From NCBI RefSeq assembly GCF_002795825.1, contig NZ_CP018800.1:620001-684000 (forward strand): a DNA stretch of 64,000 nucleotides, in the 5' to 3' direction. Below are positions 19,483 to 31,181 of the stretch, piece after piece. The translations under genes and the position numbers were made by a program. This stretch comes from Mariprofundus ferrinatatus (GTDB taxonomy: Bacteria; Pseudomonadota; Zetaproteobacteria; Mariprofundales; Mariprofundaceae). Every line of letters begins with the position of its first letter. The first letter of the stretch is position 1. The notes below the pieces were generated by a model. The model ran no database searches. It saw nothing but the letters and a program-made list of their open reading frames with translations, and was not told the DNA's origin.

Positions 19483-19620
19483 AGGCTCCTCCTTTATCCG
19501 GGAGATATGCTGGGGACGAATGTGTAATGGTGATGACATCTCTGTGGCAGGAGGGTGACAGCACTGCCAATGAATGTGAAAGAGCTGTCATTTGGCTGCT
19601 TTGTCGGGCAGGAGAATCTT

Positions 19621-21189
19621 TCAGCCTTGCGGCTGCAGAACCTCCTGAGCCAGATCGATATGCAGCTGAAGCCCGAATGCCTGTTCAAAATAGTCTGCCG
19701 TTTGTAATGCGGCCCAGCGTTCGAGCAGCATATCTCCTTTTCCTTCCATGTGCAGGGAGAGGGTCTCTTCCCCGATCTCCATCATCAGTGTGCTGATTCT
19801 GTTGCGACGTTCCTTGTTCAGCGCAATGGCCAGTCGAAGTATCGCACTGAGTTGCCACACCTTCAGCTGTGCGCTTTTGCTCAGTTCCGCGAAGCCGTTG
19901 TGCGTGTCTGAAGGGGCTGCCTTTCGCTGGTATCGAACCAGCTGAGTCAGCGTAGCCTTCTCGTTGTCGCTCAGCCCGAGAAGAGGGGCGACCGAGATCA
20001 GGTATGCGGCATGGTGGTGATGACCTCCGACGCGCACATACATGCCGATTTCATGGACAAGTGCTGCGATCTCCAAAAGCAGCCTGTCGCGGTGGTTCAG
20101 TGCATGCAGGTCACGGCTCTGATCAAAGAGTGTCAGTGCAAGATCTGCAACCTCTTTGGCATATTTGCGGTCGACATGGTATTTGCTTTTCAGGCTACGG
20201 GCCCAGGCAATCAGGTTGCGTCTCTGTGAATGGAATGTCTGGTCTTCTGAGTCGACCATATCGAGAACGATGCCATCAAGCAGGCTGGCATCGGGCATGA
20301 CCATCTCTTTGGCGCCGGATAGAAGCATGATCTCGTGGAATACCATGGCTGCGGGCAGGATCACATCAGCGCGGTCCGGCCTTAATCCATAATCCCGAAT
20401 GCGCTCCTCAAAGCTCAGCCTGGAGAGTTTTTTGATCAGCTTTTTCAGTTGTTTGCGGCTGATCGAGGTGGCTGATTCAGTGCTGAGTATCTGAAAAGCG
20501 AGCTCTCCGATGGCAGAAGCGTTGCCGCCGGTAGCCACACAGATATCGGCCTTACTGCGACCGATCTGTTCGCGGATTTTTTTGCGTGTGCCATCAAGGT
20601 ATTCTGAGAGCAGTGTGTTGAAGTCGCCCTCCTGACCAAGCATCTCCAGCAGGCGAACTGTACCGATTTTAAAGCTCTGTGCCGAAATGGCCTCACCATC
20701 ATCACAGAGGGTGACCTCAACGCTGCCGCCGCCCATATCAATAAGCACGGCAAGCTTGCTTGAGAGGTCAGCGCGCCGAGTGATGGAGTAGTGCACGAGG
20801 CGCGCCTCCTCCTCACCGCTGATCAGCTGCAGGTCGATATCGGTCTCTTCTCTGATCCGTTTGGCGAGCAGCTTGCCGTTTTTGGAATCACGCATGGCGC
20901 TCGTTGCCGTAGCACGGAACCTCTCTATATGGTGCTGGTCGAGAATTCGACGGAATTGACGGAATGCCTCAATGGCATCCTCCATCGTCTGTTCGCTGAA
21001 AACGCCACTGGTAAAGGCATCATGGCCGAGACGAACAGGTTCCCTGTAACGCTGAATCAGTGTAGCAGTGCCGCTTGAATCCTGCATGGCAATGCCCAGA
21101 CGCATGGCATTGGAACCGACATCGATGGCGGCTACCAGAGCACTATGTTCGGGCAACTCATTGTCTGCTATGAGGTTAATAATCTCCAT
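19621..21189 (-). CDS. ppx: Exopolyphosphatase, Ppx/GppA family
   Basis: Releases phosphate from the ends of polyphosphate and/or hydrolyses pppGpp. The 522-residue protein has the actin-like ATPase fold hallmarks: VAAIDVGSNAMRLGIA, RATATSAMRDSKNG, ISGEEEARL and the second phosphate loop VLIDMGGGSVEVTL. The C-terminal region carries an HD-like domain (HEIGMYVRVGGHHHHAAYLIS) as in long Ppx. It is divergent from the first PPK2 gene with about 170 bp between starts, so turnover and use of polyphosphate share one intergenic control region. I preferred the ATG at 21189 to the GTG two codons earlier. Confidence 0.94.
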   Translation of the reverse strand: MEIINLIADNELPEHSALVAAIDVGSNAMRLGIAMQDSSGTATLIQRYREPVRLGHDAFTSGVFSEQTMEDAIEAFRQFRRILDQHHIERFRATATSAMRDSKNGKLLAKRIREETDIDLQLISGEEEARLVHYSITRRADLSSKLAVLIDMGGGSVEVTLCDDGEAISAQSFKIGTVRLLEMLGQEGDFNTLLSEYLDGTRKKIREQIGRSKADICVATGGNASAIGELAFQILSTESATSISRKQLKKLIKKLSRLSFEERIRDYGLRPDRADVILPAAMVFHEIMLLSGAKEMVMPDASLLDGIVLDMVDSEDQTFHSQRRNLIAWARSLKSKYHVDRKYAKEVADLALTLFDQSRDLHALNHRDRLLLEIAALVHEIGMYVRVGGHHHHAAYLISVAPLLGLSDNEKATLTQLVRYQRKAAPSDTHNGFAELSKSAQLKVWQLSAILRLAIALNKERRNRISTLMMEIGEETLSLHMEGKGDMLLERWAALQTADYFEQAFGLQLHIDLAQEVLQPQG

Positions 21190-21358
21190 GAGCACATGCT
21201 GCCGTCATGGCAGGGAAATCGCCAAGGGATATTTTGGCTTTCCTGAATTCGATCTCCTCATGCGTGTCGCTTCCGCTGACTGTATGGAGGGTGTATCATC
21301 TAACCGATTTTTCGCGCTCTCTACGGTCGCGATTATTCCAGATGCAGGAGAGTGCATA

Positions 21359-22273
21359 ATGAATGTTGAGATAAACGCTACTGTTTCCCATGAGTCAGAA
21401 GAGGGAACGGGCGTAGATACCCTGACCAGATGTTACGATGGCCTGGTGAAGGAAAACGGGCTTAGCGACAGTAAGGTTGAGAAGATCATTACCGAGTACC
21501 TTCAGGAGGAGGAACTCAAGCCGTATCAGGCAGAGCTGATCAACCTTCAGCGTTATCTCGAAGAGACCAAGCAGCGCATGATTATCCTCTTTGAGGGCAG
21601 GGATGCGGCAGGCAAGGGAGGTACGATTCGCAGGGTTACACGCTATATGAACGAAAAACATTATCGCGTAATCGCACTCGGTAAGCCGACCGAAGAGCAG
21701 CGCACGCAGTGGTTTTTCCAGAAGTATGTCTCGCAGTTTCCGCGTGGTGGCGAGATCGTCATGTTCGACCGCAGTTGGTATAACCGTGCCATGGTGGAGC
21801 CGGTATTCGGGTTCTGCAGCGAGCAGGAGTACAACAACTTTATGAAAGGTGTGGTCGGTTTCGAGAAGGATCTGGTTCGTCAGGGTACGATTCTGGTAAA
21901 GATCTACTTCAGTGTGACCAAGGAGATGCAGCAAAAGCGATTTGAGCGCCGAAAGGACGATCCTTTGCGCCAGTGGAAGCTATCCGAGGTGGATGTGCAG
22001 GCGCAGGCGCGCTGGGATGATTTCGACAAAGTGAAGTATGAGATGCTCAGAAACACCCACACCAGTGCCGCACCGTGGACGCTTATCCGCTCTGCAGATA
22101 AGCATCTGGCCAGATTGAACTCAATCAAGGTAATTCTCAATGCGGTCGATTATGAGAAGGTGAATCAGGATATCGATTACGTGCCCGATGACAGTATAGT
22201 GATTTCGGGAGCCCGTGAAATCGAACTGATGCAGAAGGCGCAGCTGCGCTCTAAAGGGAAGAAAAAAGAGTGA
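21359..22273 (+). CDS. ppk2: Polyphosphate kinase 2 (paralog A)
   Basis: PPK2 of the P-loop kinase superfamily, 304 residues, class I single-domain type. It transfers phosphate between polyphosphate and nucleoside diphosphates. Walker A is FEGRDAAGKGGTIRR, Walker B is VMFDRSWYNRA, and the lid is RRKDDPLRQWKLS. The ATG at 21359 follows AGGAG by 8 bp; the open frame extends further upstream but without a ribosome site. The two other PPK2 genes downstream are close relatives along nearly their whole length, differing mostly in the first 30 residues. Confidence 0.95.
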   Translation: MNVEINATVSHESEEGTGVDTLTRCYDGLVKENGLSDSKVEKIITEYLQEEELKPYQAELINLQRYLEETKQRMIILFEGRDAAGKGGTIRRVTRYMNEKHYRVIALGKPTEEQRTQWFFQKYVSQFPRGGEIVMFDRSWYNRAMVEPVFGFCSEQEYNNFMKGVVGFEKDLVRQGTILVKIYFSVTKEMQQKRFERRKDDPLRQWKLSEVDVQAQARWDDFDKVKYEMLRNTHTSAAPWTLIRSADKHLARLNSIKVILNAVDYEKVNQDIDYVPDDSIVISGAREIELMQKAQLRSKGKKKE

Positions 22274-22382
22274 TGGCAGGGGCCTGGGTATAAGGGCGGC
22301 TTTTTCACCCTTTTCCGGTTTAATCGAGATCCAGTCTCGTATAAAACATCGTTTCTGATATTCCAAAGAGGCTTGCTTTGTG

Positions 22383-22388
22383 TATAAT
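22383..22388 (+). promoter_or_regulatory. -10 element upstream of PPK2 paralog B
   Basis: TATAAT inside TTTGTGTATAATGC, about 52 bp before the start codon. Nearly the same block precedes paralog C. I see no clear -35 and no PhoB box. Confidence 0.5.
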
Positions 22389-22439
22389 GCTACCCCCCTT
22401 TGACGAGGCTATTTCATCATAAGTTACGGAGAATCAGGC

Positions 22440-23351
22440 ATGAACACGACAGCACCACAGGAAGCTATCCAGAGTGAAGGATCACAGAAGGAGGCTATGT
22501 CGGGTTCACGATGTTTTGATGCGTTGGCCGATAAACACGCTCTGGATGATGAGAAAATCAAAAAGGTTCTGACCAAGTACCTTCAGGAGCAGGAGCTTAA
22601 GCCGTTCCAGGCTGAGTTGATCAACCTGCAGCGTTATCTCGAAGAGACCAGTCAGCGCATGATCATCCTCTTTGAGGGCAGGGATGCGGCAGGCAAGGGA
22701 GGCACGATCCGACGTGTCAGCCGCTACATGAATGAGAAACACTATCGCATTATTGCGCTTGGTAAGCCGACCGAGCATCAGCGTACACAGTGGTTTTTCC
22801 AGAAGTATGTTGAGCAGTTTCCGCGTGGCGGAGAGATCGCGATGTTTGATCGCAGCTGGTACAACAGGGCGATGGTTGAGCCGGTATTCGGTTTCTGCAC
22901 GGATACCGAATATAAAAATTTCATGAAGGGCGTGGTTGGATTCGAGAAAGATCTGGTTCGCCAGGGTACGATCCTGGTGAAGATCTATTTCAGTGTAACC
23001 AAGGAGATGCAGCAGAAACGTTTTGAGCGCCGAAAGGATGATCCGCTGCGGCAGTGGAAGCTCTCCGAGGTGGATGTGCAGGCGCAGGAGCGCTGGGACG
23101 ATTTTGATCATGTGAAGTATGAGATGCTCAGGCGCACCCATACCGCATCATCGCCCTGGACGGTGATTCGCTCTACCGATAAGCATCTGGCGCGGCTGAA
23201 TGCGATCAGGGTGATTCTCAACGCGGTGGATTATGAGAAGGTGAACAGGGAACTCGATTATGTGCCTGATGATAATGTGGTGATTTCCGGTGCCCGTGAG
23301 ATCGAACTGATGCAGAGAGATCGCCTGATTAAGGGTAAAAAGAGGGGTTGA
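22440..23351 (+). CDS. ppk2: Polyphosphate kinase 2 (paralog B)
   Basis: A 303-residue PPK2 with the same motif set as paralog A: GRDAAGKGGTIRR (Walker A), AMFDRSWYNRA (Walker B) and RRKDDPLRQWKLS (lid). The first 35 residues are divergent and look disordered. The ATG follows a GGAG ribosome site. A TATAAT box 52 bp upstream suggests its own promoter in addition to read-through from paralog A. Direction (ATP from polyphosphate or the reverse) and nucleotide preference cannot be fixed from sequence. Confidence 0.95.
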   Translation: MNTTAPQEAIQSEGSQKEAMSGSRCFDALADKHALDDEKIKKVLTKYLQEQELKPFQAELINLQRYLEETSQRMIILFEGRDAAGKGGTIRRVSRYMNEKHYRIIALGKPTEHQRTQWFFQKYVEQFPRGGEIAMFDRSWYNRAMVEPVFGFCTDTEYKNFMKGVVGFEKDLVRQGTILVKIYFSVTKEMQQKRFERRKDDPLRQWKLSEVDVQAQERWDDFDHVKYEMLRRTHTASSPWTVIRSTDKHLARLNAIRVILNAVDYEKVNRELDYVPDDNVVISGAREIELMQRDRLIKGKKRG

Positions 23352-23416
23352 AAAAAGCTCTTTGAACAAATCTTAGAGGGTGATTTTGGCCGCTCCTGCC
23401 TTATGTGGGGTGGGGG

Positions 23417-23460
23417 GTATTCATGGAAATCCCCATGAATACGGAGACCATGTGGGGATT
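23417..23460 (+). other. Two overlapping, mutually exclusive hairpins between PPK2 genes B and C
   Basis: GTATTCATGG (23417-23426) pairs with CCATGAATAC (23433-23442), a perfect 10-bp stem. Alternatively AATCCCCATG (23428-23437) pairs with CATGTGGGGATT (23449-23460) with one bulged T. The two stems share CCATG and so cannot form together. No U-run follows. Confidence 0.55.
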
Positions 23461-23515
23461 GAGTTTAAGTATCGGCCAGTATTAATATGCATATTCCATT
23501 GTGTGCTCTTTTGTG

Positions 23516-23521
23516 TATAAT
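23516..23521 (+). promoter_or_regulatory. -10 element upstream of PPK2 paralog C
   Basis: TATAAT in TTTTGTGTATAATGC, matching the block before paralog B, about 62 bp before the start codon. It implies a separate promoter downstream of the hairpins. Confidence 0.5.
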
Positions 23522-23583
23522 GCCCTGTCGTTTTGGCGATGAGCTTATGCCAGACGGAAATTATCTGAAAGGAGTAGAAAGAA

Positions 23584-24495
23584 ATGAATCGGTTGGCAAA
23601 CCCTGAGGTCACCCTGGATGAGGGCCCGGAGGTCATGCCGCAAGAAAACCCACGAAGCTATGAGTCCCTCATAGAAGCGCATGGACTAAGCGACAGTAAA
23701 GTAGAAAGCATCATCACCAAATATCTGCAGGAGAAAGAGCTCAAGCCGTATCAGGCAGAGTTGATCAAGCTTCAGCAGCATCTCGACAGAACTAAGCAGC
23801 GCATGATTATCCTTTTTGAAGGACGCGATGCCGCAGCCAAGGGTGGCACCATTCGCCGTGTTACCCGTTATATGAATGAAAAACATTATCGCATCATTGC
23901 CATGGGCAAACCAACAGAAGAGCAGCGTAGCCAGTGGTTTTTCCAGAAATACATATCGCAGTTTCCTCATGGTGGTGAGGTGGTTCTTTTCGACCGCAGT
24001 TGGTACAACCGCGCCATGGTCGAACCCGTGTTCGGTTTCTGCAGCCCGGAAGAGTATAAGCAGTTCATGCGCGGCGTTGTCGGTTTTGAGAAAGAGATCG
24101 TCCGCCAGGGTACCATTCTGGTGAAGATCTATTTCAGTGTTACCAAGGATGCCCAGAAGGATCGTTTTGATCGACGTAAGAATGATCCTTTAAGGCAGTG
24201 GAAGCTTTCCGAGGTGGATATGCAAGCGCAGGAGCGCTGGGACGATTTCACCAAAACCAAATATGAGATGCTTAAGCGCACCCACACCTCATCCGCACCG
24301 TGGACGGTGATCCGATCAATGGATAAGCACAAATGCAGGCTCAATGCTATCAAGGCCATCCTCAATTCTGTGGATTATGATGATTACAGTGAGGAACTTG
24401 ATTTTGTCCCGGATGACGGAGTGGTTATTTCCGGAGCAAGAGAGATTGAGTTGATGAACAAACAGCGGCTCAGGAGTGGAAAGTTTGTCGGCTGA
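23584..24495 (+). CDS. ppk2: Polyphosphate kinase 2 (paralog C, altered Walker A)
   Basis: A 303-residue PPK2, complete, with DRSWYNRA (Walker B) and a lid RRKNDPLRQWKLS. Its Walker A reads GRDAAAKGG: the glycine before the catalytic lysine (K86) is alanine 85, unlike GRDAAGKGG in paralogs A and B. It also has more substitutions elsewhere (VTKDAQKDRFDRRKN). The ATG follows AAAGGAG. It could have changed activity or nucleotide preference; whether other active PPK2 enzymes share this change I cannot check here. It is the last of the tandem set, with a Na+/phosphate carrier next. Confidence 0.94.
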   Translation: MNRLANPEVTLDEGPEVMPQENPRSYESLIEAHGLSDSKVESIITKYLQEKELKPYQAELIKLQQHLDRTKQRMIILFEGRDAAAKGGTIRRVTRYMNEKHYRIIAMGKPTEEQRSQWFFQKYISQFPHGGEVVLFDRSWYNRAMVEPVFGFCSPEEYKQFMRGVVGFEKEIVRQGTILVKIYFSVTKDAQKDRFDRRKNDPLRQWKLSEVDMQAQERWDDFTKTKYEMLKRTHTSSAPWTVIRSMDKHKCRLNAIKAILNSVDYDDYSEELDFVPDDGVVISGAREIELMNKQRLRSGKFVG

Positions 24496-24599: not shown

Positions 24600-26417
24600 G
24601 TGAAAGGAAATCTGGGTAAAATCATATTGCCAACCATCCTTCTGGTTCTGGCTTACGGCTTCTGGATCAGTCCGGATTTCAAGGAGATTGCTGCCGGTGT
24701 GGCCATCTTCCTGTTTGGCATGTTGGCCCTTGAAGAGGGGTTTAAGGCCTTTACCGGCGGCGTTCTCGAGAAGGTGCTCAAACGCACCACCGACAAGCTG
24801 TGGAAGAGCCTGAGCTTCGGTGTGCTGTCAACAACGATTATGCAGTCCAGCTCGCTGGTCTCAGTCATTACGATCTCATTCCTGGGGGCGGGGCTGATCG
24901 GGCTTGCTCAGGGTATTGGCATTATCTTCGGCGCCAATCTCGGCACGACAACAGGCGCCTGGCTGGTGGCAGGTTTCGGTCTGAAAGTGAAGATATCGGC
25001 CTACGCAATGCCGATGCTGGTCTTTGGTGTTATTCTGATATTCCAGAAATCCCGTCAGTTGAAAGGTGTTGGCTATATTCTGGCAGGTCTCGGTTTCCTT
25101 TTCCTCGGCATCCATCATATGAAGGAGGGATTTGAAACCTTCAAATCCGCCATCGATTTGGCCGAATATGCAGTGGCCGGTTATCCCGGTCTCTTCCTGT
25201 TCACGCTGATCGGTATTTTTGCTACCGTGGTGATGCAGTCGAGCCATGCCACACTGGTACTGATTATTACCGCACTCGCAGCACAGCAGATCTCCTATGA
25301 GAATGCGCTGGCACTGGCGATCGGTGCCAATGTAGGCACCACGATCACCGCTATTCTCGGATCACTTAGCTCCAATGAGCAGGGCAAACGACTTGCCGGA
25401 GCGCATCTGATATTTAATGTGGTTACAGGGTTGATCGCGATCATCTTTATCCACCAGTTTCTGGCCGCAGTGGATTTTGTTAGTGAGTCCGTCGGGATTG
25501 GGGCGGATGATTACACCCTGAAGCTGGCCGTATTCCATACGCTGTTTAATCTGGTCGGTGTTATGGTGATGATTCCGCTCATCAATCATCTGGTGAATTT
25601 CCTTGAAAGGTTCATCAAGTCCGAGCCAGACAGCTACGCGCAGCCGAAATATCTCAATGATTCAGCTATCGAGTTCGGTGACACTGCAATTGAGGCGCTG
25701 CGGATGGAGACTGCCCGTATCTACGACAAAGCAACCAAGGTGATTGCCAAGGGGTTGTCTCTGGATAAGGCGAAGATTCTATCTGGCGAAAAGTTGAAAC
25801 ATGTGATTAGAGCACATGATAAGGTCGTCAGTTACGATATTGAGGATGTCTACGAGCACGAAATCAAGAGCCTCTGCAGTGCTGTGCTCGATTTCTCCAA
25901 CAAGTTGAATGTCACAGAGCATCAGGCGAGGCGGGTCAGCCGTATCCGAATGGCCATCCAGTCGGTGCTGATTGCAATGAAGAACCTGAAACACCTGCAG
26001 AAAAATATGCTGAAGTATATCAATTCAGGGAATCCACATATCAGCGGTGAGTATAATCGTCTGCGGCAGCGAATTGCCAAGGCAATCCGGAGGCTGGAGA
26101 AGATCAGGAGTGATGAACATTCCAGTACCTCTATCCTTTCACTTGATGCTCTGAAGCTGACGCTTGAGAAGAATATGGGGCTGCTTCATGAGCGAATGGA
26201 TGAATTGATTCGTGAAGGGCATATCTCAGCGGAGATGGCAATTTCACTGATGAATGACAGCCACTACAGCTATAGTATCATTCATAACCTGATCCAGGTG
26301 AACCACAACTGCCTGAAGTCGGAAGAGATTGATCAGTCTGATGCAGAGCACATGATTGCCCTGAACAGGGAGGAGATCAGCTCCGTGTTAGCAGATAACC
26401 AGAATAGTGCGGAATGA
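24600..26417 (+). CDS. Na+/phosphate cotransporter with C-terminal PhoU-like domain (copy 1)
   Basis: A 605-residue inner-membrane protein of the NptA/YjbB Na+/Pi cotransporter family. The N-terminal half (about 1-335) has two inverted repeats, each with a QSS motif: IMQSSSLVSVITISFLG and VMQSSHATLVLIITALA, followed by GANLGTTTGAWL and GANVGTTITAIL. The C-terminal 250 residues are helical and PhoU-like. Start is GTG with AAGGA upstream. In the family, transport direction (uptake or export) varies, and the PhoU-like tail may gate it. The downstream gene begins 18 bp after the stop. A near-duplicate lies at 26.8 kb. Confidence 0.93.
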   Translation: MKGNLGKIILPTILLVLAYGFWISPDFKEIAAGVAIFLFGMLALEEGFKAFTGGVLEKVLKRTTDKLWKSLSFGVLSTTIMQSSSLVSVITISFLGAGLIGLAQGIGIIFGANLGTTTGAWLVAGFGLKVKISAYAMPMLVFGVILIFQKSRQLKGVGYILAGLGFLFLGIHHMKEGFETFKSAIDLAEYAVAGYPGLFLFTLIGIFATVVMQSSHATLVLIITALAAQQISYENALALAIGANVGTTITAILGSLSSNEQGKRLAGAHLIFNVVTGLIAIIFIHQFLAAVDFVSESVGIGADDYTLKLAVFHTLFNLVGVMVMIPLINHLVNFLERFIKSEPDSYAQPKYLNDSAIEFGDTAIEALRMETARIYDKATKVIAKGLSLDKAKILSGEKLKHVIRAHDKVVSYDIEDVYEHEIKSLCSAVLDFSNKLNVTEHQARRVSRIRMAIQSVLIAMKNLKHLQKNMLKYINSGNPHISGEYNRLRQRIAKAIRRLEKIRSDEHSSTSILSLDALKLTLEKNMGLLHERMDELIREGHISAEMAISLMNDSHYSYSIIHNLIQVNHNCLKSEEIDQSDAEHMIALNREEISSVLADNQNSAE

Positions 26418-26435
26418 GTGAAAGCAGGAGCGACA

Positions 26436-26708
26436 ATGGAATTTAATAAAGCATTGAAGAAGAAGTTGCTGAAGAAACTGAAGACCTATCTGAATGCCGA
26501 GGCTGATCAACTGCAGCAGGAAGATGAAGGACTCTCCAAGGTGCTGAAGAAGCTCAAGAAGAAAGAGAATCATCTCAAGGAGTTGATTGCTTCTGAAACT
26601 GATGCGGATGAGCGCGAGATGCTTGAACAGGAGCTTGATGTGGTTCATTCACAGCGTAAAAAGGGTATTACACTTCTCTCCACTGTGCGTGAAAGAAAGA
26701 ACAGATAA
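26436..26708 (+). CDS. Small charged coiled-coil protein (copy 1)
   Basis: A 90-residue, very Lys/Glu-rich helical protein (LKKKLLKKLKTYL, LSKVLKKLKKKENHLKELI) with heptad-like leucines and no cysteine, membrane segment or known domain. The ATG at 26436 follows GCAGGAGCGACA. It sits directly downstream of the cotransporter gene and is followed by a terminator. A recognisable paralog (KVLKKLKKKE... versus RVLKNLEERE...) follows the second cotransporter copy, so the pair is a repeated unit. Its role is unknown; a cytosolic partner of the PhoU-like tail is an inference. Confidence 0.75.
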   Translation: MEFNKALKKKLLKKLKTYLNAEADQLQQEDEGLSKVLKKLKKKENHLKELIASETDADEREMLEQELDVVHSQRKKGITLLSTVRERKNR

Positions 26709-26750
26709 ATCAGCACGCTCGACTGTCTCTAGGTTTCGTGGAATACACAT

Positions 26751-26781
26751 GGTGTCCGGATTTGCGGGCACCGTTTTTTTT
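26751..26781 (+). terminator. Intrinsic terminator after coiled-coil copy 1
   Basis: GGTGTCCG (26751-26758) pairs with CGGGCACC (26765-26772), with one G-U pair and a 6-nt loop, followed by G and eight T. It separates the two cotransporter units. Confidence 0.8.
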
Positions 26782-26811
26782 ACTGAGAATAATAGCTAAG
26801 GATATAAATAT

Positions 26812-28635
26812 ATGAGAAACACACTGCGGAAAGTGATCCTGCCTTCAATCATGCTGATTCTGGCTTACGGCTTCTGGATCAGTCCCGATTTTAAAGAGAT
26901 CTCTGCGGGCGTAGCCATATTTCTGTTTGGCATGCTGGCACTTGAGGAGGGATTCCGGGCCTTCACAGGCGGTGTGCTTGAGAAGATACTCAAGAAAAGT
27001 ACCAACAGGATGTGGAAGAGCCTGACGTTTGGTTTTACTGCAGCCACGGTGATGCAGTCGAGTTCGCTGGTCTCAGTGATTACGATCTCCTTTCTCAGTG
27101 TCGGACTGATCGGGCTCGTTGAGGGGCTTGGCATTGTGTTTGGTGCAAACGTGGGTACGACTACCGGCGCATGGCTGATTGCCGGCTTCGGCCTGAAGGT
27201 GAAGATATCGGCCTATGCCATGCCGATGCTGGTATTTGGTGTGATGCTTATTTTCCAGCGATCAAAGTCGTTGAAAGGAGCCGGGTATATTCTGGTTGGC
27301 CTGGGGTTCCTCTTCCTCGGCATCCACCATATGAAAGAGGGTTTTGAGGCCTTCCAGAACAGCATCGATCTGACAGCCTATGCGATGGACGGGATGGCAG
27401 GCATCCTGGTATTTACCCTGATTGGTATCGTTGCCACGATCATTATGCAGTCCAGCCATGCGACACTGGTGCTGATTATCACTGCCCTTTCGGTCAATCA
27501 GCTTACCTATGAAAATGCGCTGGCGCTGGCGATCGGCGCCAATGTTGGCACGACCATTACAGCCGTACTTGGCGCCCTTTCGTCAAATGTTGAAGGCAAA
27601 CGACTTGCATTGGCCGATGTGATTTTCAAGGTGGCTGCAGGTGTTGTGTTTATTATACTGATGCAACCGATTATCGGCATTGTTGATGCGATCGCTTCTG
27701 CGATTGGTCTGGCGGATAACGACTACACGCTGAAACTGGCAATTTTTCACACCATTTTTAATGTGGCTGGCGTCATCATCATGGTGCCGCTGATCGGGCG
27801 ACTGGTACAGCTGGTGAACACGATTTTCAAATCGGAGCCGGATCAGCACGCTCAACCAAAATACCTTAATGAGTCATCAATGGAGTTTGGTGATACAGCG
27901 CTTGAGGCGTTGCGAATGGAGACAGCCAGGATCTATGACAAGGCAACTGACATTATCGCCAAGGGGCTTTCACTGGAGAAGGATGATGTATTCTCCAGTA
28001 CCAAGCTGAAAACAGTTATCAGGGAACATGATAAGGCCGTAGATTTTGATATTGATGATGTCTATGAGCATGAGATCAGGTACCTTTGTGGAGCCATTCT
28101 GGATTATACCAACGGCCTCTCTTTTGATGCTGAAACATCGAGGCAGATTTCACGTATTCGCAAGGCCAATCAGTCGATACTGATCGCCTTGAAAGATGTG
28201 AAACATCTGCAGAAGAATATGTTGCAGTATATCGCTTCAGACAATCCTGCTATCGCAGGTGAGTACAATCGCCTTCGACAGCGTATTGCAAAAGTTCTGC
28301 GCCGGCTCGAGAGGATTCGGAACCAGGATCTATCGAGTGCATCCATCCTTTCACTTGATGCACTGAAGCTGACACTGGAAAAAAATGCCGGGCTGTTACA
28401 TCAGCGGCTTGATGAGCTGATTCGTGAAGGTGATGTTTCAGCAGAGATGGCGGTCTCGCTGATGACGGATAGCAACTACACCTACAGTATCATCCATAAC
28501 CTGATTGAGGTGAACCATAACTATCTGAAATCCGAAGAGAGTTCGCACAATGCAGCAGAGCATATGATTGCTTTGAATCGAGATGAAATTAACTCCGTAC
28601 TGTCCGGAAACCGCAGTGGAGATGAAAGAGAGTAG
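26812..28635 (+). CDS. Na+/phosphate cotransporter with C-terminal PhoU-like domain (copy 2)
   Basis: A 607-residue paralog of the 24.6-kb carrier, alike along its length, with the same QSS repeats (VMQSSSLVSVITISFL and IMQSSHATLVLIITAL), GANVGTTTGAWL and GANVGTTITAVL, and a PhoU-like tail (MEFGDTALEALRMETARIYDKAT). The ATG follows TAAGGATATAAATAT. It is separated from the first unit by a terminator, so it needs its own promoter, which I could not identify in the 30 bp left. A PhoB box lies just after its stop and serves the next small gene. Confidence 0.93.
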   Translation: MRNTLRKVILPSIMLILAYGFWISPDFKEISAGVAIFLFGMLALEEGFRAFTGGVLEKILKKSTNRMWKSLTFGFTAATVMQSSSLVSVITISFLSVGLIGLVEGLGIVFGANVGTTTGAWLIAGFGLKVKISAYAMPMLVFGVMLIFQRSKSLKGAGYILVGLGFLFLGIHHMKEGFEAFQNSIDLTAYAMDGMAGILVFTLIGIVATIIMQSSHATLVLIITALSVNQLTYENALALAIGANVGTTITAVLGALSSNVEGKRLALADVIFKVAAGVVFIILMQPIIGIVDAIASAIGLADNDYTLKLAIFHTIFNVAGVIIMVPLIGRLVQLVNTIFKSEPDQHAQPKYLNESSMEFGDTALEALRMETARIYDKATDIIAKGLSLEKDDVFSSTKLKTVIREHDKAVDFDIDDVYEHEIRYLCGAILDYTNGLSFDAETSRQISRIRKANQSILIALKDVKHLQKNMLQYIASDNPAIAGEYNRLRQRIAKVLRRLERIRNQDLSSASILSLDALKLTLEKNAGLLHQRLDELIREGDVSAEMAVSLMTDSNYTYSIIHNLIEVNHNYLKSEESSHNAAEHMIALNRDEINSVLSGNRSGDERE

Positions 28636-28658
28636 GTAATATTGCTGTTTCATTTTTT

Positions 28659-28692
28659 GCGTCACATAAATGTCATAATTGACTGTTAATAT
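28659..28692 (+). promoter_or_regulatory. PhoB box and -10 driving coiled-coil copy 2
   Basis: GCGTCAC-N4-ATGTCAT (28659-28676) has the 11-bp repeat spacing of PhoB half-sites, and TAATAT (28687-28692) begins after exactly 10 bp, as in PhoB-activated promoters. It lies 24 bp after the cotransporter stop, so the 85-residue gene can be induced on its own. Confidence 0.7.
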
Positions 28693-28756
28693 CCTCTTCC
28701 CACCTATAGTGGTCGACTCGTTCAGGCTGGAGATTGACCATAGAGAGGAGTTCAGG

Positions 28757-29014
28757 ATGAAGTTGAAAAAACTGTTGAAGCAACTCGAGTCACTTTTTGA
28801 TGCCGATAGGGAGCGACTGCAGGAGAAGGAGAAAGGACTGGTCCGGGTTCTGAAGAACCTTGAAGAGAGGGAGCGTAAGCTTGAAGTTAAGATCAGTGCT
28901 GAGATCGATGACGAGGAGCGAGAACTGCTTGGTCAGGAGTTAAGCATCGTACAATTGCAACGACAAAAAGGAGCCCTGCTCCTCACCAGGATCAGAGAAG
29001 GGAATAAGCAGTGA
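28757..29014 (+). CDS. Small charged coiled-coil protein (copy 2)
   Basis: An 85-residue paralog of the 26.4-kb small protein: a helix-forming, charged sequence (LKKLLKQLESLFDADRERL, GLVRVLKNLEERERKLEVK, ELLGQELSIVQLQRQKGALLL). The ATG at 28757 follows GAGGAG; 26 upstream codons of open frame cover the PhoB promoter and are not translated in this model. It has its own predicted PhoB-dependent promoter and a terminator, so it is expressed separately from the transporter under phosphate limitation. Family and function are unknown. Confidence 0.75.
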   Translation: MKLKKLLKQLESLFDADRERLQEKEKGLVRVLKNLEERERKLEVKISAEIDDEERELLGQELSIVQLQRQKGALLLTRIREGNKQ

Positions 29015-29139: not shown

Positions 29140-29173
29140 ATGTCACATGAATGTCATAAATGAAATGTATAAT
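29140..29173 (+). promoter_or_regulatory. PhoB box and -10 of the DUF47-Pit operon
   Basis: ATGTCAC-N4-ATGTCAT (29140-29157), then TATAAT (29168-29173) after exactly 10 bp. A further pair of ATGTCA-type half-sites spaced 9 bp lies just upstream (29111-29126). This is the clearest PhoB promoter in the window. Confidence 0.85.
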
Positions 29174-29222: not shown

Positions 29223-29903
29223 ATGGTTAGAAGAAGTCCGATTTCAAATATGTTTGCCGGCTCTCCGGTGAAACCGCTGCAGGAGCATATCAGCAAAGTT
29301 CACGAGGCTGTCAAAAAGCTTGAGCCTTTCTTTAAGGCTGTGATTGATAAAGATTACGATCAGGTCGCCGTTCTGGAGCGTGAGATTCACAGAATTGAGG
29401 TTGATGCGGATACCCTGAAGCATGAGCTGCGTATCAATCTGCCCAATTCTCTTTTTATGCCGATGCCGCGTGAGCGCATTCTGGACATTGTGACCCATCA
29501 GGATCATCTCGCTAATAGGGTCAAGGAAGTAACCAGCATGGTGAATGGCCGCAAGATGCAGGTTCCCGATGAGATAGCAGAGCTTCTGACGCAGTTTGTG
29601 CTTGTGAATATAGCGGCCTCCCGTCAGGCGAAAAGGATCGTCAATGAACTTGATGAACTGGTGGAGGTCGGTTTCCGTGGCCGCGAGGTGACCAGTGTTG
29701 AGGAGATGATCGATGAGCTGCATAAAATCGAATATGAGGCTGATAAAATTGGTACTCAGATCAATAATGCACTGTTTGTGATTGAGAAGAGTATGGATCC
29801 TGTTGATGCTGTTTTCCTGTACCGCATGGTCCGGGAACTTGGCGCTGTGGCAGATTCTGCGCAGCGTGTTGGTGCTCGACTCGAACTGTTGCTGGCACGA
29901 TAA
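29223..29903 (+). CDS. DUF47-family PhoU-like protein, Pit accessory
   Basis: A 226-residue all-helical protein of the DUF47/PhoU-like family (COG1392) commonly encoded next to Pit transporters. Typical features are the YDQVAVLEREIHRIEVDADTLK helix, INLPNSLFMPMPRERIL and the late HKIEYEADKIGTQI. It is thought to regulate or aid low-affinity phosphate transport at the inner membrane. The ATG at 29223 follows GGGAG; a TTG four codons earlier is the only other option. It is followed 12 bp later by pit and preceded by a strong PhoB promoter. Confidence 0.93.
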   Translation: MVRRSPISNMFAGSPVKPLQEHISKVHEAVKKLEPFFKAVIDKDYDQVAVLEREIHRIEVDADTLKHELRINLPNSLFMPMPRERILDIVTHQDHLANRVKEVTSMVNGRKMQVPDEIAELLTQFVLVNIAASRQAKRIVNELDELVEVGFRGREVTSVEEMIDELHKIEYEADKIGTQINNALFVIEKSMDPVDAVFLYRMVRELGAVADSAQRVGARLELLLAR

Positions 29904-29915
29904 GGGGAGAAAATC

Positions 29916-31181
29916 GTGGATATTCTTGTTGCAAATTCAACTTTATTAATTGGCATGGCCGTGGTATTCGGCCTATTCATGGCCTGGGGTATTGGTGCGA
30001 ATGATGTTGCCAATGCCATGGGAACATCGGTCGGCTCTGGTGCACTGACCTTCAAACAGGCAGTGATTATTGCTGCAATCTTTGAGTGTGCCGGTGCTGT
30101 TCTTGCGGGTGGTGAGGTTACCAAAACCATCCGTAAGGGAATTGTAGATGTTTCTTCACTGGGAACTACGCCTGAGCTTCTGGTTTACGGTATGCTGGCA
30201 TCCCTGCTTGCTGCCGGAATCTGGTTGCTGGTTGCAACCCGCATGGGCTGGCCGGTTTCCACCACGCACTCTATTGTCGGTGCCATCGTCGGTTTTGGTG
30301 CCGTCGGTATCGGTATGGAAGCGGTTATGTGGGGCAAGGTAGGTACCATTGCACTGAGCTGGGTGACCTCACCACTGATGGCTGGTGTGATCGCCTTTGC
30401 TCTGTTCAGGAGTCTTCAGAAACTGATTATCGATACCGAGGATCCGCTTGCCAATGCGAAGAAGTATGTGCCTTACTACATCTTCCTTGTTGGCTTCACC
30501 ATTGCTATGGTGACGATGCTCAAGGGTCTCAAGCATGTCGGTGTGAAACTGCCATTCGAGCAGGACCTTATCTATGCCGGACTCGTCGGAGTCATCGTTG
30601 CGCTGATCGGTACGGTGATGATCAAGCGTCTCAAGTTCACTGCCAAGGCTGATAAGAAGTTCCACTTTGCCAATATGGAGAAGATCTTCGGTGTATTGAT
30701 GATCTTTACAGCCATTGCGATGGCCTTCGCACACGGCTCCAACGATGTAGCCAACGCGATCGGTCCGGTAGCAGCTGTTGTGGGGATCGTAAGTAGCGCT
30801 GGTGAAATTGCATCCAAGTCGGCTACACCTGTATGGATTCTGCTGCTTGGTGGTGCTGGTATCGTCATAGGCGTTGCAACCTACGGTCACAAAGTGATTG
30901 CAACAGTCGGGTCGGGCATCAGTGAGTTGACTCCAAGTCGCGGTTTTGCCGCTACACTTGCTGCTGCGGCTACGGTTGTTGTGGCTTCAGGTACAGGCAT
31001 GCCGATCTCCACCACGCATACACTGGTAGGTGCCGTGATCGGTGTTGGTCTTGCCCGTGGTATCGGTGCACTGAATGTCGGTGTGATCCAGACGATTTTC
31101 CTGTCATGGATCATAACGCTTCCGGCAGGTGCGCTCCTGTCGATTCTGTTTTTCTTCTTCTTCAAAGGCGCATTTAGCTAA
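29916..31181 (+). CDS. pit: Inorganic phosphate transporter, PiT family
   Basis: A 421-residue polytopic symporter. The two PHO-4 half-repeats carry the phosphate signatures WGIGANDVANAMGTSVGSG and AHGSNDVANAIGPVAA. Members import phosphate, often as a metal-phosphate complex with H+ or Na+. The start is GTG with AGGGGAGAAAATC before it. It is the second gene of a PhoB-boxed operon with DUF47, whereas E. coli pitA is not a Pho-regulon gene. It ends at a bidirectional terminator facing phoU. Confidence 0.95.
   Translation: MDILVANSTLLIGMAVVFGLFMAWGIGANDVANAMGTSVGSGALTFKQAVIIAAIFECAGAVLAGGEVTKTIRKGIVDVSSLGTTPELLVYGMLASLLAAGIWLLVATRMGWPVSTTHSIVGAIVGFGAVGIGMEAVMWGKVGTIALSWVTSPLMAGVIAFALFRSLQKLIIDTEDPLANAKKYVPYYIFLVGFTIAMVTMLKGLKHVGVKLPFEQDLIYAGLVGVIVALIGTVMIKRLKFTAKADKKFHFANMEKIFGVLMIFTAIAMAFAHGSNDVANAIGPVAAVVGIVSSAGEIASKSATPVWILLLGGAGIVIGVATYGHKVIATVGSGISELTPSRGFAATLAAAATVVVASGTGMPISTTHTLVGAVIGVGLARGIGALNVGVIQTIFLSWIITLPAGALLSILFFFFFKGAFS

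Follow-up and report, generated by a model that had tools for sequence, protein, structure and literature searches.

Small proteins that act on phosphate (Pi) transporters have a precedent in Escherichia coli, where MgtS regulates the Pi transporter PitA. MgtS is a short transmembrane peptide; the proteins considered here, designated CC, are charged helical hairpins. Three clades of accessory regulator have otherwise been distinguished, namely PhoU, PitR (DUF47) and the PhoU domain of NptA, all of them helical and each tied to one family of Pi transporters (PMC13170248). CC proteins are likewise tied to carriers, but are two-helix hairpins of 75-95 residues rather than repeats of the PhoU three-helix bundle, and come in addition to the PhoU-like tail of their carrier, not in its place. 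A small protein of the SCO1846 type, whose function is unknown, is encoded beside pitA in genomes lacking PitR (PMC13170248); it resembles CC in its size and in its position next to a Pi transporter, but is set apart by its description: its annotation is that of a membrane protein and its neighbour is PitA, whereas CC is charged and found beside Na/Pi carriers. Very small DUF1127 proteins, finally, act on PhoR and tune phosphate metabolism through protein-protein contact (PMC12501420). Unlike CC, which matches no Pfam family, they carry a known domain, are often shorter than 50 residues and target a sensor kinase.

Two Na+/Pi carriers, each followed by a small paralogous gene

The window analysed is a 64,000-nt stretch of Mariprofundus ferrinatatus DNA (NZ_CP018800.1, positions 620,001 to 684,000), and all coordinates below refer to it unless another contig is named. 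Two Na+/Pi carriers, NPT1 (24600..26417, plus strand, 605 aa; PF02690, 2e-49; NF037997, 6e-50) and NPT2 (26812..28635, plus strand, 607 aa; Pfam Na_Pi_cotrans, 2e-45), are 70% identical to one another. Both match PF02690 in two stretches and NF037997 above its cut-off, as expected of Na/Pi symporters, and carry the repeat motifs QSSS (residues 82-85) and QSSH (residues 213-216). The Na_Pi_cotrans region of NPT1 is followed by a PhoU-like C-terminal region; although this region of about 240 residues yielded no PhoU match in Pfam in either carrier, its counterpart in a close relative (the fusion described below), as modelled with low confidence, resembles PhoU (1t72, probability 0.99).

CC1 (26436..26708, plus strand, 90 aa) begins at an ATG at 26436, 18 nt past the TGA stop of NPT1 and preceded by an AGGAG Shine-Dalgarno sequence, and its stop codon ends at 26708. 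CC2 (28757..29014, plus strand, 85 aa) runs from an ATG at 28757 to a stop ending at 29014 and starts 121 nt past the stop codon of NPT2. The two proteins are 45% identical across an 85-residue alignment (E 4e-15), and the whole-genome search that gave this alignment found only these two loci in the 2.3-Mb genome. The two frames are thus real and recognisable paralogs, as an earlier note on this DNA had held. The same note had described each of them as directly following a PhoU-tailed carrier. The order of the genes agrees with that description, but CC2 cannot be regarded just as the downstream gene in an operon with its carrier, because the 121-nt gap ahead of it contains a Pho-box-like element. 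Retention of the pairing through duplication was likewise a fair reading, yet CC2, with its putative promoter, has diverged far more from CC1 (45% identity) than the carriers have from each other (70%).

The element ahead of CC2 is a direct repeat (28659..28676, plus strand, with a third half-repeat extending to about 28690) that scored 13.9 (P=0.005 per 122-bp segment, the background being 122-bp stretches of the same window outside the cluster), the pattern weights having been chosen manually after the E. coli consensus, which makes Pho-box scores indicative only. Three relatives have the element at a conserved position, and a similar box was found by the same scan at 29140-29157, ahead of the DUF47-PiT genes. 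Further Pho-box-like repeats are clustered, in both orientations, at 19533-19602, in the interval separating the ppx-like gene from the next gene on the minus strand. Indicative as the scores are, CC2 may have a Pho-box-like promoter of its own, while CC1 appears to be co-transcribed with NPT1.

These promoter arrangements bear on the possibility that CC is induced in Pi starvation to inhibit a carrier of the exporter type (YjbB-like), preventing Pi loss. YjbB, when overexpressed, promotes Pi export (Motomura 2011, as cited in PMC11850910 and PMC11389368), and the Pho-box-like promoter of CC2 would fit such a role. CC1, however, appears not to be separately induced, and we regard such an inhibitor as unlikely.

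CC1 lies in frame with NPT1 across the single TGA (26391-26450), a layout that recurs in several relatives. Programmed read-through of this stop is not favoured, because CC1 has its own Shine-Dalgarno sequence and the family as a whole does not preserve the frame relation.

The pair lies in a larger phosphate cluster in the order ppx-like gene, three PPK2 genes, NPT1, CC1, NPT2, CC2, and then, outside the pair, DUF47 (a PitR-type regulator) and a PiT phosphate transporter (29223..31181, plus strand; PF01865, 2e-48; PF01384, 1.6e-116). Beyond these come phoU-pstBACS and two porin-like genes on the opposite strand, followed by phoB-phoR-like genes on the plus strand; the PPX, Pst, porin and PhoBR names were assigned by reading the sequences rather than by profile search. 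The three PPK2 genes stand in tandem directly upstream of NPT1 (21068-24495), and one to three PPK2 genes precede the carrier in several Mariprofundaceae.

The CC family and its predicted fold

Neither Pfam nor NCBIfam holds a model that matches CC, and searches of PHROGs and PDB sequences returned weak and inconsistent matches only, the best PHROG match (1e-4, to CC1 only) being of unknown function; the earlier remark that no family could be recognised therefore holds. No prior description of the family was found in the open literature searched or in these four resources. Among 25 CC members, PF01895 (the PhoU family) gave no match at E 0.01 in the Pfam search, which returned single weak and unrelated matches only. 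CC likewise matched neither PF01865 (PitR/DUF47), the neighbouring DUF47 gene encoding a separate protein, nor the DUF1127 profile among the Pfam families. With its two helices and no PhoU profile match, CC falls outside the PhoU family. The possibility that CC arose by duplication of part of the carrier's PhoU-like tail was also considered; MAFFT did align the two, but the idea was rejected because hhalign gave a probability of 0.2% for CC against the profile of the carrier including this tail.

A profile built for the family scored CC1 at 107 bits and CC2 at 95 bits, both being in its training set. Held-out homologs from Alphaproteobacterial plasmids, annotated as 'hypothetical protein', scored 42-52 bits, versus at most 12.6 bits for 2,160 composition-matched shuffles of family members. 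Judged by these profile scores, the similarity that defines the family is not a chance one, its distant homologs standing far above the shuffles. Members share, besides a score well above the shuffles, adjacency to a Na/Pi carrier or another Pi-uptake gene, with one exception (L130, see below). A weak match interrupted by stops (G003, E=0.047) and another inside a 731-aa frame (G504) were treated as chance, and viral contigs contained no relatives of either the carrier or CC.

AlphaFold predicts CC1 to be a two-helix hairpin (pLDDT 91.9; helices 5-53 and 57-89), and no membrane segment is predicted in CC. Foldseek searches with the hairpin returned generic coiled-coil hairpins, none with E below 0.1. 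The family is basic, with a median net charge of +8 and a median pI of 9.8. This charge and the PPK2 neighbours in Mariprofundaceae are the only hints that CC might bind polyphosphate. Taken further, CC might be a basic polyphosphate- or phosphate-sensing protein that is merely co-expressed with the carriers, its Lys-rich helices binding polyphosphate at the membrane, near carriers and PPK2, without touching the carrier. PPK2 genes do lie directly ahead of the pair in Mariprofundaceae, but are almost never nearby outside this family (1/20 regions), and CC members with no net charge or a negative one also occur (L110_7754, -2). The correlation between CC and a motif in the carrier's tail and a fused reading frame, both presented below, also point to the carrier protein as the partner, and we consider a purely polyphosphate-directed role improbable.

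CC genes adjoin carriers and other phosphate uptake genes

To a search among the genomes of 61 relatives, in which 17 had a CC match and every strong match adjoined a carrier, the profile (A1, then A3) added homologs from other families and classes of Pseudomonadota. In the class of G155, 23 CC matches were obtained, and a carrier directly adjoined CC in 19 of the 20 regions inspected, the carrier being a divergent one in L129. Counting from the carrier side, NPT1-type carriers (44% identity or more) were present in 20 of the 274 genomes of this class; CC was found in 16 of these 20 versus 2 of the other 254 (Fisher p=2e-20), of which one is the genome of L129 and the other looks spurious. CC accompanied 3/4 NPT1-type carriers in the class of G240, and all three Rhodobacteraceae plasmid carriers (48-49% identity) had an 82-84-aa CC-profile protein within 100 nt downstream. 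These plasmid homologs were reached via the carrier search, tblastn of plasmids with CC1 alone having returned nothing. One Gammaproteobacteria MAG contig (L069) is a further named example of the family. More distant carriers (about 31-39% identity), including a third carrier in the M. ferrinatatus genome, had no CC in the cases inspected.

Not all CC genes follow this arrangement. Two Magnetococcus-like genomes (G045 and G051) have two CC copies each: the first follows an NPT1-like carrier (55-57% identity), and the second precedes a divergent one (26-28% identity). In the Magnetococcus-like genomes G054 and G064, CC lies directly in front of pstS, and in G057 CC genes, two of them in tandem, occupy the space between phoU and pstS, at contig ends that face each other. 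Since CC is thus found beside carriers, divergent carriers and pstS/phoU, its association is with Pi-uptake systems, mostly of the NPT1 clade, and in more than one gene order. CC genes ahead of pstS were seen at L033 6718-8139, L071 6471-7850 and L034 7778-9314, in Magnetococcus-like relatives without an NPT1-type carrier. The one homolog without a phosphate gene nearby (L130 5299-5562) has a Kef-like antiporter gene on one side and a response-regulator-like gene on the other. In G604, whose genome has five CC genes, an in-frame TAA divides one carrier gene into two ORFs (L121 5567-7390), and the CC neighbour of this carrier is intact.

The CC genes beside pstS and phoU raise the question of whether CC could be a general adaptor of PhoU-like modules, whether carrier tail or Pst PhoU, linking Pi import to PhoR/PhoB much as PhoU links Pst to PhoR. 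Their occurrence in Magnetococcus-like genomes without an NPT1-type carrier, and the Pho-box-like promoter ahead of CC2, would fit such a role. Most CC-paired carriers, however, are not near phoBR, and we view a general adaptor as doubtful, if somewhat less so than the inducible inhibitor discussed above.

Spacing between carrier and CC is often less than 60 nt and the genes sometimes overlap, which is consistent with translational coupling. The distance matrices of carriers and CC proteins correlated with r=0.81, against a permuted maximum of 0.34, a value to which shared phylogeny contributes. Neutral linkage, in which a small ORF is inherited beside the carriers and is functionally unrelated to them, could draw on the short, low-complexity-like sequence of CC; the association nonetheless persists across several classes, in both gene orders, with different carrier subfamilies and on plasmids, with near absence elsewhere. 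Given the contingency tables, neutral linkage is close to refuted, and we assign it hardly any weight.

The functional partnership proposed in the earlier note is thus supported, nearly all homologs examined adjoining a Na/Pi carrier and the rest mostly pstS/phoU. Co-occurrence held whether one started from CC or from the carrier, and homologs scattered without carriers were not what was found. The genetic partnership of CC and carrier is as good as shown and, from the consistent adjacency over several Proteobacteria classes, CC almost certainly serves phosphate uptake as a dedicated accessory component.

A C-terminal motif of CC-paired carriers

Past the last PhoU-like helix, CC-paired carriers end in a short, conserved acidic segment that is mostly lost from carriers without CC. 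It reads AEHMIALNREEISSVL in NPT1 (26343..26390, plus strand) and AEHMIALNRDEINSVL in NPT2 (28555..28602, plus strand), and takes the forms REAEQAISLSDDELEAVM in Magnetococcus-like relatives, DAERALQLDDNELDEI in the class of G155 and EVERLLSLDEEELGEAV in Rhodobacteraceae. The motif was present in about 34/40 carriers with CC versus 1/10 without (Fisher 2e-5). These counts were made with a loose pattern that was defined once the sequences had been seen, with manual correction for overlapping genes missed by the script, and they include related sequences, so that independent events are few; independent losses number about three or four. Six Mariprofundus carriers without CC, forming one clade about 70% identical to NPT1, end early or have unrelated ends. 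In G580 a weak form of the motif persists in a carrier that has no CC beside it. In the plasmid and G240-class carriers, examined after the motif had been noticed, it was present in 5/5 of those with CC. A second subgroup of CC-paired carriers (L074, L126 10931-12718 and L133) shares another C-terminal ending, IKELGDEYE; the CC proteins of this subgroup are very divergent, and start and stop codons overlap.

In the MAG of Mariprofundus sp. OFTM252 (L024/L065), carrier, tail motif and CC are joined in one 698-codon open frame. A TTG with GGAG ahead of it persists at the old CC start and is a possible internal start. The open frame could stem from a one-base indel in this single MAG, and the fusion is given modest weight. 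An AlphaFold model of this natural fusion, prepared with read-through rows from relatives, had a pLDDT of 57.3 (below 50 in the tail), a confidence too low for any carrier-CC interface to be read from it.

The motif is a strong lead to a candidate docking site for CC, although not proof of one. Binding of CC to the tail is suggested only indirectly, by the correlation of the motif with the presence of CC and by the one fused frame. Since the CC homologs adjacent to pstS and to divergent carriers have no tail motif nearby, tail docking cannot be the whole story.

Discussion

Our preferred reading, to which we lean only slightly, is that CC serves PhoU-tailed Na+/Pi carriers as a dedicated accessory subunit in the cytoplasm, docking on their C-terminal motif and modulating them. 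CC would fold as a basic two-helix hairpin, as predicted, and this conserved hairpin would dock beside the PhoU-like domain, on the acidic, helical segment AExxIALxxxEIxxVL with which the carrier chain terminates. Once docked, it may modulate the activity of the carrier, its direction, or its coupling to phosphate signalling. While the genetic association is observed, we infer physical binding, the binding site and the regulatory effect of CC. A bolder version, which we put forward tentatively, is that the unnamed family clamps the acidic tail motif and thereby sets the direction or activity of transport, that starvation-induced CC2 re-tunes it, and that the same hairpin serves Pst/PhoU in the Magnetococcus relatives.

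The control, and even the direction of transport, of PhoU-tailed Na/Pi carriers of the NptA/YjbB type is unsettled, and CC and the tail motif provide a concrete handle on it, natural carriers with and without CC at about 70% identity being ready-made controls. For database curators, CC represents a real family where annotation reads 'hypothetical protein'. If the bolder version is true, CC would join PhoU, PitR and the PhoU domain of NptA as a further accessory regulator of phosphate import in bacteria.
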